Shown in pieces: positions 3,600 to 10,193 of a stretch of 10,227 bases of DNA. The notes beneath the pieces are model-generated. The model ran no database searches. It was not told where the DNA came from and saw nothing but the letters and a program-made list of their open reading frames with translations. The position numbers and the translations under genes were made by a program. Origin of the DNA: an uncultured Eubacteriales bacterium (GTDB lineage Bacteria; Bacillota; Clostridia; Oscillospirales; Oscillospiraceae); contig CAKTLJ010000037.1 in the NCBI GenBank assembly GCA_934572535.1, positions 1 through 10,227 on the forward strand, in the 5' to 3' direction. How positions within the stretch are numbered: the stretch's first letter is position 1; every line of letters starts with the position of its first letter.

Positions 3600-3628
3600 T
3601 TGACAAATTTTGTAACCTGTGGTAGGAT
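3600..3628 (+). promoter_or_regulatory. SigA promoter for the 80/210-residue gene pair
   Basis: A consensus -35 box TTGACA (3600-3605) is separated by 17 bases from TAGGAT (3623-3628). The predicted start is near 3635, leaving an 80-base leader before ATG 3715. Confidence 0.65.
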
Positions 3629-3714
3629 GATGCTGGGAATAGTCAACAAAATGACAAGGAAAAGCCCTGCAAGATTTATGCACGATTGCGATTTATTAGA
3701 AAGGATGATCGCGT

Positions 3715-3957
3715 ATGGTTCGCTGGAGAAAAGGGGCAGCGCTATCAAGGTTTGGAAAAGTGCTCCTGCTGCTTCTGCTTGCAGACGCGCTGTACTTGCT
3801 CCTGCTCCTCCTTGATGTGTGTGGGATCAGGCTTCCGTGGATCGCGGACAGCGGCGCGACCCCCATGCGCCTCGTTTCCGCTGTCCTCATTACCATTGCA
3901 TTGATCGGTTTGCTTCTCCGGGATATCAAACGGGAAAAGCAGAGGAGATCCAGCTGA
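3715..3957 (+). CDS. Small two-helix membrane protein, function unknown
   Basis: The product has 80 residues. A basic start (MVRWRKGAALSRFGK) leads into a leucine-dense helix (VLLLLLLADALYLLLLLLDVC, about residues 16-36). A short outside loop (GIRLPWIADSGATP) follows, then a second helix (LVSAVLITIALIGLLL, about 52-67) and a basic tail (RDIKREKQRRSS). Both ends are positively charged, which places them in the cytoplasm with the loop outside. AAAGGA (3700-3705) sits nine bases before the ATG. It follows its own promoter and is 42 bases ahead of the 210-residue membrane-anchored protein gene, probably co-transcribed. I do not recognise the family. Other frames across this segment are longer at the left but lack a ribosome site and show no protein-like pattern. 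Confidence 0.6.
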   Translation: MVRWRKGAALSRFGKVLLLLLLADALYLLLLLLDVCGIRLPWIADSGATPMRLVSAVLITIALIGLLLRDIKREKQRRSS

Positions 3958-6893: not shown

Positions 6894-7415
6894 TCACTCG
6901 GCGACGGCCAGCCTCTGGCGGATGTAGGACCCCACCTGGTCGTCGGGGACCTGGAGGACGAAGGACAGCTCGTTTTCGATGATGCCCTCCGCCCGGCGGA
7001 GGGTGGTCTCATCGGAGGCGGAGAGCTTCTTGCCCCGGCCCGCCAGGTCGTGCTTGTGGCGGTAAATGCAGACCACCAGGCGGAGAAGCTCCCGCAGCTC
7101 GCAGGCCTTGAGCGCGGCCTGGAAGCTGGCCATGCGGACCTTCCGGTCCTCGACCCAGTCCAGCTCCGCCCCCCGGGTGGAGAGGATCAGCTCGTCGATC
7201 TCCGCCTGGGTGGGCAGGCGCTGCATCCTGGCCAGCAGGGTCTCGCTGGTGGTGGGGACGAAAATGGTGGAGCCGGGGTCGGCCACAGGCTTTAGAATGT
7301 AAAAGGTCTTGGGGGCTTCCTTGCCCCGGGGTGTATCCGTGCGGATATCCGCCACCAGACAAACGCCGTTGCAGGAATAGCTGACGTGCTCGCCGATGCG
7401 GTATGATTCTGCCAT
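6894..7415 (-). CDS. CarD/CdnL-type transcription regulator
   Basis: From the chosen start the product has 173 residues. The N-terminal CarD/TRCF RNA-polymerase-interaction fold is visible in YRIGEHVSYSCNGVCLVADI, followed by TFYILKPVADPGSTIFVPT, equivalent to the usual 'FxIGDxVVYPxHGVGxI ... YYVLK ... VMVPV' pattern. The rest is the helical C-terminal domain, including DWVEDRKVRMASF. CarD proteins bind the polymerase beta subunit and stabilise the open complex, often at stress or rRNA promoters. AAGGAGG (7429-7423) is seven bases from ATG 7415 and four from ATG 7418, so I take 7415. The open frame extends to 7496, but that extra part is not protein-like and lies before the ribosome site. It is monocistronic, has its own TATAAT promoter, and is convergent with htpG. 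No DNA-binding helix beyond the CarD fold is seen. Confidence 0.88.
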   Translation of the reverse strand: MAESYRIGEHVSYSCNGVCLVADIRTDTPRGKEAPKTFYILKPVADPGSTIFVPTTSETLLARMQRLPTQAEIDELILSTRGAELDWVEDRKVRMASFQAALKACELRELLRLVVCIYRHKHDLAGRGKKLSASDETTLRRAEGIIENELSFVLQVPDDQVGSYIRQRLAVAE

Positions 7416-7483
7416 CATAGGGCCTCCTTCCGGGTTCGTTTTGGGAACGGGGCATGGCTCGGTCCGCGCGTCTCGCGGCCGCA

Positions 7484-7498
7484 GTATGCCCAACATAC
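7484..7498. promoter_or_regulatory. Small inverted repeat at the start of the carD-like transcript
   Basis: GTATG-CCCAA-CATAC (5-bp arms, 5-base spacer) lies directly downstream of the -10 box, at about +1. This is a place where a repressor would block initiation. The arms are short, so chance is possible. Confidence 0.3.
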
Positions 7499-7724: not shown

Positions 7725-7762
7725 GTCCCCCGCGAACCTGAATCACAAGGAGGTTGCGACAC

Positions 7763-8182
7763 ATGAACGAGATCGCAGTCATTTTCTGGTCCGGCACCGG
7801 CAACACCGCCGCCATGGCCACCGCCGTGGTGGAAGGGGCGGGCAGCCAGGCCAAGCTCATCAACGTCAACGACATCACGGCCGACGAGGCCGGGCAGTAT
7901 AGCCGCCTGGCGCTGGGCTGCCCCTCCATGGGCGACGAGGTCCTGGAGGAGGACGTCTTTGAGCCGTTCTTCACCGCGCTGGAGGGCCAGCTCTCCGGCA
8001 AGAAGGTGGTCCTCTTTGGCTCCTACGACTGGGGCGACGGCCAGTGGATGCGGGAGTGGGCGGACCGGACCAAGGCCGCCGGGGCGGTCCTCTGCGCCGA
8101 GCCGCTCATCGTCAACCTGTACCCGGACGCCAACGGCCTGAGCCAGTGCCGCGCCCTGGGCGCGGCCATCGCCAACGCCTGA
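7763..8182 (+). CDS. Short-chain flavodoxin
   Basis: The product has 139 residues and matches the length and pattern of clostridial flavodoxins (about 138). The FMN phosphate loop SGTGNT is at residues 10-15, directly after the beta-1 strand IAVIFW. GCPSMGDEVLEEDVFEPFF corresponds to the conserved 'GCxAMGDEVLE' segment, and FGSYDWGDGQWMREW is the second FMN loop with its stacking aromatic. It carries one or two electrons at low potential between oxidoreductases in the cytoplasm, substituting for ferredoxin under iron limitation. I chose ATG 7763 because AAGGAGG (7747-7753) is nine bases away; the TTG at 7754 abuts that site and is not usable. It is monocistronic, with a probable metal-responsive operator at its transcript start and a long terminator-like hairpin downstream. 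Confidence 0.95.
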   Translation: MNEIAVIFWSGTGNTAAMATAVVEGAGSQAKLINVNDITADEAGQYSRLALGCPSMGDEVLEEDVFEPFFTALEGQLSGKKVVLFGSYDWGDGQWMREWADRTKAAGAVLCAEPLIVNLYPDANGLSQCRALGAAIANA

Positions 8183-8254: not shown

Positions 8255-8300
8255 AACGCACCCGAGGGGCGGTCTGTTGACCGCCCCTCGGGTGCGTTTC
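8255..8300 (+). terminator. Very long perfect hairpin, probable flavodoxin terminator
   Basis: A perfect 20-bp stem (8255-8274 with 8279-8298) has loop TGTT. The T-run is short (TTTC), but the stem is unusually long and GC-rich. It is symmetrical and starts 72 bases after the stop codon. It could alternatively be a small palindromic repeat element. Confidence 0.6.
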
Positions 8301-8402: not shown

Positions 8403-8457
8403 TGAGCAGCATGTTCTCCGACGTACACGCCGCCGGAGAACATGATCTCATTTTTTT
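8403..8457 (+). terminator. Terminator-like hairpin with T7
   Basis: An 11-bp perfect stem CATGTTCTCCG/CGGAGAACATG (8410-8420 and 8434-8444) is extended across a small internal loop by TGAG/CTCA (8403-8406 and 8447-8450). It runs directly into T8451-8457. No gene ends just upstream, so either it is a back-up for the flavodoxin unit or an RNA is transcribed between 8300 and 8457. Confidence 0.6.
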
Positions 8458-8494: not shown

Positions 8495-8533
8495 GACCGT
8501 CTCGTTTGCCGCGCGGAAGTGTGCCGGAAGCGG

Positions 8534-8562
8534 TTGACAAATAGTGCCCGGACACATATAAT
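8534..8562 (+). promoter_or_regulatory. Perfect consensus promoter of mgtE
   Basis: TTGACA (8534-8539) and TATAAT (8557-8562) are exactly 17 bases apart, a full match to the SigA consensus. The predicted start is near 8569, leaving a leader of about 245 bases. Such a strong promoter implies that control acts after initiation. Confidence 0.9.
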
Positions 8563-8568
8563 GAGGCT

Positions 8569-8813
8569 GGTTCCCTGCGGGGAGCTTATTTCTGACGGAA
8601 AAGTGAGGTGGAAACAATGGACGCAGGCGGTAGTAACGGCACTTTGGCAGGCCGACCTCCCCAGCGCATGGAGGACCCGCCCCTAGGGGCGTCCATTCGT
8701 GCCCACTGATCCCTCATAGATCCCAAGATCGGTCCACCGGTGTGTCTTACTTCTTGCTCCGAAACTGGGCGTAGTCCGCGCCTTGAAACGAAAACAGCTT
8801 GGAGGAGATGCCA
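8569..8813 (+). ncRNA. Long structured mgtE leader, candidate Mg2+ control region
   Basis: The transcript has about 245 bases before mgtE. I find none of the conserved M-box (ykoK) segments I looked for, so this is probably not that riboswitch. Competing pairings are visible. The uORF start region 8617-8624 (ATGGACGC) is the exact complement of 8689-8696. Those bases also belong to a local hairpin (GGAC 8673-8676 with GTCC 8691-8694, inner GCC/GGC) whose 5' arm contains the two proline codons. CCTCC...AGC (8656-8665) can pair with GCT...GGAGG (8797-8805), the mgtE ribosome site. There is no rho-independent terminator inside, so control would be translational or Rho-dependent. Confidence 0.5.
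8617..8709 (+). CDS. 30-residue mgtE leader peptide (uORF)
   Basis: ATG 8617 is preceded by GAGGTGG and opens a 30-codon frame that ends at TGA 8707-8709, inside the mgtE leader and 104 bases before mgtE. The peptide starts MDAGGSNGTLAGR. It contains PP at 14-15, then R-M-E-D-P-P at 17-22, and ends LGASIRAH. Acidic residues followed by prolines are the hallmark of the enterobacterial MgtL leader peptide, whose nascent chain destabilises the ribosome when Mg2+ is low and thereby opens expression of mgtA. The proline codons CCG CCC (8677-8682) sit in the arm of a local hairpin, so ribosome progress there would change the RNA fold. The sequence shows the frame and motif directly; the Mg2+ role is inference. 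The internal ATG (codon 18) has no ribosome site. Confidence 0.5.
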   Translation: MDAGGSNGTLAGRPPQRMEDPPLGASIRAH

Positions 8814-10193
8814 ATGGCAGAGAAAAACGTGGTCACCCTCGGGGTGACCCTGGAAGCCTTGGTCGAGGCGAAGAAATACACCACCCTGCGGGACATCCTG
8901 GTCACCATGAATGCGTCGGACATTGCGACGCTCTTCGAGGATGTGCCCGAGGAAAAGCTGCCGCTGCTGTTCCGGCTTTTGCCCAAGGAGCTGGCGGCGG
9001 AGACCTTTGTTGAAATGGAACCGGAGGCCCAGGAGCTTTTGATCCAGGGCTTTTCCGACAACGAACTGAAGGAAGTCGTTGACGAGCTCTACGTGGACGA
9101 CGCGGTAGACATCGTGGAAGAGATGCCTGCCAACGTGGTCAAGCGCATTTTGAAGCAGGCCGACCCGGAAATGCGCAAGATGATCAACGAGATCCTGAAA
9201 TACCCCGACGACAGCGCTGGCTCCATCATGACCACGGAGTACGTGAGCCTGCGCCCCAACATGACCGCGGAGGAGGCCATCAAGCGCATCCGCCGCACCG
9301 GCGTGGACAAGGAGACCATCTACACCTGCTACGTCACCGACAACAACCGGAAGCTGGTGGGCATGATCTCCCTGCGGACCCTCCTGCTCTGTGACGACGA
9401 CGACGTGATGGAGGACGTCATGGAGCCGAACGTCATCTCCGTGAACACCCTGGAGGACCAGGAGAGCGTGGTCCAGATGCTGGCCAAGTACGACTGGTCG
9501 GCCATGCCCGTGGTGGACCAGGAGAACCGCCTGGTGGGCATCGTCACCATCGACGACGCCATCGACGTCCTCCAGGAGGAGACCACCGAGGACTTCGAAA
9601 AGCTGGCCGGTATGACCCCGACGGATAAGCCCTACCTCCGCACCGGCGTGCTGGAGACCTGGAAATCCCGCATCCCCTGGCTGCTGATCCTGATGCTCTC
9701 GGCCACCCTGACCAGCATGGTCCTGACCGGCTTCGAGACCTCCCTGGCGGCCTGCACCGCCCTGACCGCCTTCATCCCCATGCTCACGGGTACCGGCGGC
9801 AACAGCGGCACCCAGTCCTCCGTGGCGGTCATCCGCGCCCTGTCCCTGGGCGAGGTGGAGTTCGTGGACACCATCCGGGTCGTCTGGAAGGAGATCCGGG
9901 TCGCGGTGATGTGCGGCCTCACCCTGGCGGCCTGCAACTTTGTCAAGCTCCTGGTGGTGGACCGGATGCTCCTGGGCAACACCGGCGTCCGGGTCCCCGT
10001 GGCGGCGGTGATCTGCGTGACCATGGTCTTCACGGTCCTGTGCGCCAAGACGGTGGGCTGTGTGCTCCCCCTGCTGGCGGAGAAGATCCACCTGGACCCG
10101 GCCGTCATGGCCAGCCCCTTCATCTCCACCATCGTGGACGTCATCACCCTGCTCATCTACTTTCAGGTGGCCAAGGCCATCCTGCATATCTGA
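8814..10193 (+). CDS. mgtE: Magnesium transporter/channel MgtE
   Basis: The product has 459 residues and the complete MgtE architecture. A helical N-domain (residues 1-125) carries repeated short units (SDIATLFEDVPEEKLPLLFRLLPKELAAE, NELKEVVDELYVDDAVDIVEEMP). Two CBS domains (about 130-255) are introduced by YPDDSAGSIMTTEY. The connecting helix and five membrane helices start near residue 283 (IPWLLILMLSATLTSM). The pore signature TGTGGNSGTQSS is near 325, and HLDPAVMASPF near 426 holds the Asp that corresponds to the ion-selectivity residue of Thermus MgtE. The acidic N and CBS domains bind intracellular Mg2+ and close the pore. GGAGG (8801-8805) is eight bases before ATG 8814; ATG 8808 is too close and the TTG at 8799 is not credible. 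The gene follows a consensus promoter and a long leader with its own peptide frame. Confidence 0.97.
   Translation: MAEKNVVTLGVTLEALVEAKKYTTLRDILVTMNASDIATLFEDVPEEKLPLLFRLLPKELAAETFVEMEPEAQELLIQGFSDNELKEVVDELYVDDAVDIVEEMPANVVKRILKQADPEMRKMINEILKYPDDSAGSIMTTEYVSLRPNMTAEEAIKRIRRTGVDKETIYTCYVTDNNRKLVGMISLRTLLLCDDDDVMEDVMEPNVISVNTLEDQESVVQMLAKYDWSAMPVVDQENRLVGIVTIDDAIDVLQEETTEDFEKLAGMTPTDKPYLRTGVLETWKSRIPWLLILMLSATLTSMVLTGFETSLAACTALTAFIPMLTGTGGNSGTQSSVAVIRALSLGEVEFVDTIRVVWKEIRVAVMCGLTLAACNFVKLLVVDRMLLGNTGVRVPVAAVICVTMVFTVLCAKTVGCVLPLLAEKIHLDPAVMASPFISTIVDVITLLIYFQVAKAILHI

Follow-up and report, generated by a model that had tools for sequence, protein, structure and literature searches.

Introduction

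In translational attenuators of the erm type, translation of a leader ORF decides whether an anti-Shine–Dalgarno (anti-SD) segment masks the next gene, and a stalled ribosome frees that gene. Leader ORFs also serve magnesium uptake in enterobacteria, where efficient translation of MgtL (upstream of mgtA) and CorL (upstream of corA) at high Mg2+ represses the transporter, as described in the passages on these leaders in PMC11282234 and PMC11552253. In the same passages, MgtL appears as a short ORF before an Mg2+ transporter gene, with alternative RNA structures, efficient leader translation as the OFF condition, Rho-dependent transcription termination as the output and the run EPDP at codons 2–5 as the trigger (PMC11282234, PMC11552253). 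CorL, as portrayed in the part of PMC11552253 devoted to it, has a conserved N-terminus with a single proline, represses its transporter when translated and likewise acts through Rho. In Mycobacterium tuberculosis, a magnesium element is followed by a conserved small ORF upstream of pe20, and the section of PMC12810186 on this arrangement has an M-box controlling translation of the ORF.

Here we examine the leader of an mgtE gene in a stretch of 10,227 nucleotides (the window), a piece of a Clostridia-like genome. By comparison with related loci, it is a member of a new leader-peptide family that precedes mgtE in many gut Clostridia, with a predicted logic like that of MgtL and CorL, a different peptide signature and a predicted translational output. 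In open-access PMC text we recognised no description of an mgtE leader peptide of this kind.

Results

The mgtE locus and its leader ORF

The features of the leader and of mgtE all lie on the plus strand of the window. The mgtE gene itself (8814–10193) is identified by domain matches to MgtE_N, two CBS domains and the MgtE transport domain. Among the fetched loci, the most similar mgtE is that of L001, from a Bacillota metagenome assembly, at 94% protein identity; Ruminiclostridium-labelled and Evtepia genomes come next, and a plasmid collection searched with 8500–8900 gave no match. The initial annotation had pointed out a perfect TTGACA-17-TATAAT promoter, which we find at 8534–8562 with 12 of 12 matches; hexamers resembling it lie 5′ of the leader in many relatives, as judged by eye and uncounted. 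Where the transcript presumably begins, 8569–8586 can form a hairpin with a 7-pair stem, and in several close relatives the sequence has changed with the hairpin kept (by eye). This hairpin is perhaps a 5′ stabiliser of the transcript. Further upstream, strong inverted repeats were seen by eye at 8257–8296 and 8411–8443, between a flavodoxin-like gene (7754–8182) and the mgtE promoter; a T run follows the second, which is terminator-like. A minus-strand ORF at 6894–7496 encodes what we take to be a relative of CarD-type transcription factors.

The 30-codon ORF reported earlier, with a ribosome site and the run Arg-Met-Glu-Asp-Pro-Pro, is present at 8617–8709. It starts with ATG, encodes MDAGGSNGTLAGRPPQRMEDPPLGASIRAH followed by a stop codon, and is preceded by the Shine–Dalgarno (SD) sequence GAGGTGG at 8605–8611. 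The ORF has no match in Pfam, and the leader folded as a whole (8569–8813) is of ordinary stability compared with shuffles (z 0.53). An Rfam scan of the same segment, M-box included, returned no family even at E ≤ 5, in agreement with the earlier remark that M-box landmarks are lacking.

A family of leader peptides upstream of mgtE

The ORF of the window belongs to a family with the peptide pattern MDAG-x-S-x-G-T-x-x-GR-S, represented upstream of mgtE by 87 distinct versions of 21–37 codons. Its members include the leaders of Evtepia gabavorous KLE1738 (L009) and [Clostridium] viride DSM 6836 (L014). An ORF fitting the pattern and provided with a ribosome site is found in 58 of 81 mgtE loci (the window and 80 others; L080, among the 58, is doubtful). 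A profile built from 55 leader peptides, searched against genomes at a cut-off of E ≤ 1e-3, had matches in 33 of 200 genomes in the family set, 17 of 394 in the order set, 8 of 391 in the class set and 2 of 398 in the phylum set; G001, a leader genome used as the centre, is counted in all four. The two phylum matches are G001, the query genome, and L145, a chance match without mgtE. For profile matches at E ≤ 1e-3, those of the phylum search apart, 51 loci were fetched, which include re-finds of earlier loci. mgtE is present in 49 of them and the leader ORF lies at most 0.35 kb from the mgtE match in 48; in L129 it precedes the first mgtE match, taken here in place of the gene start, by about 0.8 kb, and the matches in L128 and L136, which have no mgtE, look like chance.

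Because the 87 leaders were selected by the peptide pattern [MV][DE][ATSVI]G, their uniformity at residues 2–4 is partly built in. For this reason ORFs were also picked blindly, by ribosome site, start codon and downstream CGAAG alone, from 130 loci. This selection gave 64 in-frame candidates, 61 of which start M-D/E-x-G; the other three are the same ORFs with the start read one codon earlier. The 19 out-of-frame candidates are, from a reading of the list, mostly second start codons within the same leader, and one, in L054, lies outside the leader. Among the 61 blind-picked leaders, residue 2 is Asp in 59 and Glu in 2, residue 3 is Ala in 55, and residue 4 is Gly in all 61. The Asp2 codons are divided between GAC (39) and GAT (20), and the Gly4 codons among GGC (31), GGG (13), GGA (11) and GGT (6). 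Asp-Ala-Gly is therefore kept at codons 2–4 with varying third bases, which reflects selection on amino acids, and an artefact of pattern-based picking is not borne out by the blind selection. As in leader-peptide attenuators generally, comparison of the loci shows a short ORF, equipped with a ribosome site of its own, whose first amino acids have been maintained by selection.

The Arg codon at position 10–14 (8653–8655 in the window) is the rare CGA in 83 of the 87 leaders; the remaining four have CAA (L016, L034 and L112) or CAT (L135) instead. CGA accounts for 3.7% of the Arg codons in mgtE itself (56 genes from these loci). It occurs 89 times in the leader frame vs. 3 and 2 times in the other two frames, and is held in frame although its distance from the leader start varies. 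In the his leader of Salmonella, CGA belongs to the Arg codons that are read slowly, according to the passage of PMC4046918 on that leader. The conserved part of the family is the N-terminal MDAG...G..GR(S) with its fixed CGA, corresponding in the window to codons 1–13 (8617–8655, MDAGGSNGTLAGR), and the tail is little conserved between clades. Within the clade of the window, codons 4–13 are strongly conserved at the nucleotide level.

The initial annotation had looked to conservation of the ORF, above all of its Glu-Asp-Pro-Pro codons. The ORF is indeed kept, in 87 distinct leaders, but Glu-Asp-Pro-Pro is not part of the conserved core. The motif [DE]{1,2}PP is found in 16 of the 87 leader tails vs. 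1.5 expected by shuffling, and 11 of these 16 tails are those of the window and of L001–L011 without L009, which makes the motif mostly clade-specific. In the clade of the window, [DE]PP also overlaps an RNA hairpin. The looser motif [DE].{0,3}P[LIVP] occurs in 24 of the 87 tails (8.2 when shuffled). L121, L124 and L125 carry SEPPPRL in the leader tail and have a differently built downstream partner; they are possibly a separate branch that keeps an acidic-proline run.

Long-range pairing of the leader codons

Two pairings had been proposed from the window alone. The exact complementarity of the leader start region, 8617–8624 (ATGGACGC), with 8689–8696 (GCGTCCAT) is confirmed, and a full 8-base partner for the first eight bases (G-U allowed, searched in ORF bases 55–110) exists for 13 of the 16 leaders closest to the window, for 10 of the other 71 and in 53 of 1740 shuffles. 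Codons 14–17 (8656–8665) pair strongly with the mgtE SD in the window and in L001 and L002 (–10 to –18 kcal/mol), but this pairing is not conserved: the remaining 13 of these 16 leaders give –0.2 to –8.4 kcal/mol. Masking of the mgtE site by these codons was rejected, as it is not kept in relatives; the predicted mask is 8750–8758.

Missing from the initial annotation were the anti-SD at 8750–8758 and a long-range helix formed by codons 6–13 with 8729–8751. The 5′ arm of the helix (8632–8655) consists of AGTAA (8632–8636), GGCAC (8638–8642), TTGG (8644–8647) and GGCCGA (8650–8655), which pair, respectively, with TTACT (8747–8751), GTGTC (8742–8746), CCGG (8737–8740) and TCGGTC (8729–8734) of the 3′ arm (8729–8751). 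Across the family, the segment that pairs with codons 3–15 lies between the leader stop codon and mgtE and ends in the anti-SD; we refer to this pairing as the ON helix.

The ON helix was assessed by comparing the pairing of each locus' segment with its own partner and with those of other loci, row and column means being removed. With 52 representative loci and partners taken from the stop codon, the leader head has a mean own-pair advantage of –4.58 kcal/mol, which none of 2000 permutations reaches. The controls gave –0.63 kcal/mol for the leader tail with the same partners (197/2000 permutations) and –0.47 kcal/mol for the stretch upstream of the leader (300/2000). In an earlier version of the test, in which the partner overlapped the tail, the head scored –3.8, tail codons 17–29 scored –2.4 (0/2000), an upstream partner +0.26 and shuffled partners –0.1 to –1.1; the tail advantage is discounted because the partner stretch there overlaps the tail. 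The own-pair advantage is uneven: it is strongest in L130 and L029 and absent in L003, L034, L055, L057, L103, L111, L134 and the window, where its own partner gives no gain over foreign ones (+0.9). When the partner was shuffled with dinucleotides preserved, only 37 of 83 loci reached the 5% level.

The innermost pairs, of codons 4–9 with the anti-SD, are nearly invariant in the 45 anchored loci (88.9% paired vs. 88.2% in shuffles, 214/2000 as good), and codons 3–9 alone have no own-pair advantage (264/2000 permutations), so the covariation of the ON helix comes from its outer part. Compensatory changes include GGCCGA/TCGGCC, GATCGAAG/CTTCGATC in L130, GGCCAAAGT/ACTTTGGCC in L112, and GGAAGCA/TGCTTCC in L062 vs. 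GGAAGTA/TACTTCC elsewhere. L029 keeps a long helix (AAGTGCAAAGC with GCTTTGCGCTT) though its codons 6–10 encode other residues.

The anti-SD and predicted switching

The anti-SD of the window (CTTCTTGCT, 8750–8758, exact register uncertain) overlaps the 3′ arm of the ON helix, and its predicted partner in the OFF state is the mgtE SD region AGCTTGGAGG at 8796–8805. In several relatives the anti-SD and the mgtE ribosome site pair as CTTCCTAA with TTAGGAGG; the pairing in the window, 8750–8758 with 8796–8804, is less perfect. Between the two elements lies a hairpin (8767–8783, GGGCG/CGCCT), the stem of which changes on both sides in relatives (alignment, by eye). Covariation of the OFF pairing is weak: 96 of 2000 permutations are as good, and the own pairing is better than the median foreign one in 45 of 57 loci.

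Folding of 83 loci gave a predicted mean probability of 0.22 that the mgtE site is unpaired when the leader carries no ribosome. This value falls to 0.10 for a ribosome placed at codon 6 and likewise for one at CGA, and to 0.09 when the head is covered. With the ribosome at codon 6, predicted accessibility is lower in 35 of the 83 loci and higher in 1, and with the ribosome at the leader start or stop codon the change over the 83 loci is not significant. More than half of the loci have no predicted fall in accessibility with a ribosome (e.g. L029, L062, L112 and L130), and the mgtE site of the window is predicted to be mostly paired in every state (0.05–0.34). The ON and OFF pairings may be mutually exclusive, with covariation for ON, complementarity and weak covariation for OFF, and predicted switching in fewer than half of the 83 loci. 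In the folding model, the mgtE ribosome site is predicted to become hidden once a ribosome occupies the leader. This differs from erm-type attenuators, in that the presence of the ribosome would mask the next gene. The candidate in which a ribosome paused at CGA frees codons 4–6 and turns mgtE ON was rejected, as folding predicts OFF instead.

Relation to the M-box

The M-box (ykoK) riboswitch, RF00380, shares the kind of target gene with the leader and occupies the same place, upstream of mgtE, in 7 of the 23 loci of the first set that lack a leader. It has no match on the leader of the window. Among 26 further loci listed with a leader (L080 doubtful), an M-box was found only in L029, upstream of the leader, and no other riboswitch was found by Rfam in the leaders of the window and the scanned relatives. 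Of the 200 family genomes, 33 have the leader and 34 the M-box, and a single one, L111, has both vs. 5.6 expected (P 0.011, a value that ignores kinship and compares an M-box search with stricter filters than the leader search). A scan with looser filters found no M-box in 18 other leader genomes and recovered both M-boxes of the two tandem genomes, which were included knowingly as controls. In these two, L029 (M-box at 3611–3770) and L111, the M-box is a separate upstream element, and M-box, terminator-like hairpin (by eye), leader and mgtE follow in series. Four of eight fetched M-box loci (L137, L139, L140 and L143) have no mgtE match in the fetched stretch.

Together, the mgtE target, the presence of M-boxes mostly in other genomes and the two M-box–leader tandems suggest that cellular Mg2+ would be the input signal of the leader.

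Discussion

At the level of sequence, our comparison establishes the conservation of the leader ORF, its codon bias, its association with mgtE and its covarying long-range pairing. On these features, a conserved cis-acting leader probably controls mgtE translation through a ribosome/anti-SD switch with Mg2+ as its input. Codons 3–15 would pair with the segment just upstream of mgtE that ends in the anti-SD, a step to which the covariation points, and the same segment, once freed from the leader, would pair with the mgtE ribosome site, as complementarity, folding and a weaker covariation suggest. Ribosomes moving or pausing on the leader, aided by the slow CGA, would block the leader pairing, and the anti-SD would then mask mgtE (OFF). 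A ribosome that does not start or drops off would let the leader capture the anti-SD, and mgtE would be translated (ON). With plentiful Mg2+, translation of the leader would be stable and little MgtE made; in shortage, ribosomes would be lost and more MgtE made. In vivo, the anti-SD would thus act as the switch, ribosome loss as the trigger and Mg2+ as the signal.

Of the analogy with MgtL drawn in the initial annotation, the leader peptide, the alternative pairings before mgtE and the same on/off logic are supported, and the acidic/proline core is not. Like MgtL, the ORF precedes an Mg2+ transporter gene; unlike MgtL, it has no acidic/proline run at the peptide start, where generally only residue 2 is acidic in the head, its conserved peptide is MDAG...GR with CGA, and it is predicted to act by masking the ribosome site of mgtE. 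CorL, compared here by description, differs in gene family and in its Rho output (PMC11552253, in the part on CorL). In the pe20 case the M-box controls ORF translation, as set out in the relevant section of PMC12810186, whereas most mgtE leaders scanned have no M-box.

Other readings share part of this evidence. An MgtL mechanism in the strict sense, with acidic and proline codons causing Mg2+-sensitive loss of the ribosome as supposed from the window alone, is consistent with the acidic residue 2 of all 61 blind-picked leaders (59 Asp, 2 Glu), with the excess of [DE].{0,3}P[LIVP] in the tails (24 of 87 vs. 8.2) and with an on/off direction that is the same as for MgtL and CorL in the passages of PMC11282234 and PMC11552253 on these leaders. 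We nevertheless find it somewhat unlikely: most heads hold a single acidic residue and no acidic-proline run, [DE]PP is present in 16 of the 87 tails, 11 of which belong to the clade of the window, where it overlaps an RNA hairpin, and L009, inside that clade, lacks it. The invariant rare CGA could instead mean that the leader senses some other slowing of the ribosome, at CGA or elsewhere, through charged tRNA-Arg, antibiotics or the state of translation; the presence of mgtE in 49 of 51 profile-match loci and the joint occurrence of leader and M-box in two loci make this an unlikely account.

A direct RNA switch, with Mg2+ or another ligand bound by the RNA itself and the ORF carried along as a passenger or just reporting the state, seems quite unlikely. 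Nucleotide conservation of codons 4–13 in the clade of the window, the fixed CGA and the long-range helices would suit it; however, the third bases of codons 2–4 are free where the residues are kept, also in blind-picked leaders, CGA stays in frame at varying distance from the start, which argues that translation matters, and the leaders scanned match no riboswitch of Rfam except the separate M-box of L029. It is very improbable that the ORF serves to make a small functional protein together with MgtE instead of a leader peptide: despite the conserved N-terminus, the leaders are 21–37 codons long, their tails are little conserved between clades, and the ORF of the window lacks a Pfam match.

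In its most complete form, the ribosome/anti-SD switch would make the ribosome an independent Mg2+ sensor in Clostridia, a proposal that we hold tentatively, at slightly short of even chances. Translation of MDAG...G-R(CGA) would be stable only with enough Mg2+, ribosome loss would let the leader codons capture the anti-SD and turn mgtE ON, and the leader would replace the M-box in many genomes and stand in series with it in a few. If the proposal is true, ribosome-based control of magnesium would extend beyond enterobacteria in the form of a family that has a translational output, a different peptide signature and no match in Rfam 15 on the scanned leaders. It raises the question of whether ribosomes can sense Mg2+ when no acidic/proline run is present, and of the role of the fixed CGA. 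The tandem M-box loci would let both sensors be compared on one transcript. Such a switch would also make clear how magnesium uptake could be controlled in gut Clostridia in which mgtE is present and the M-box absent.
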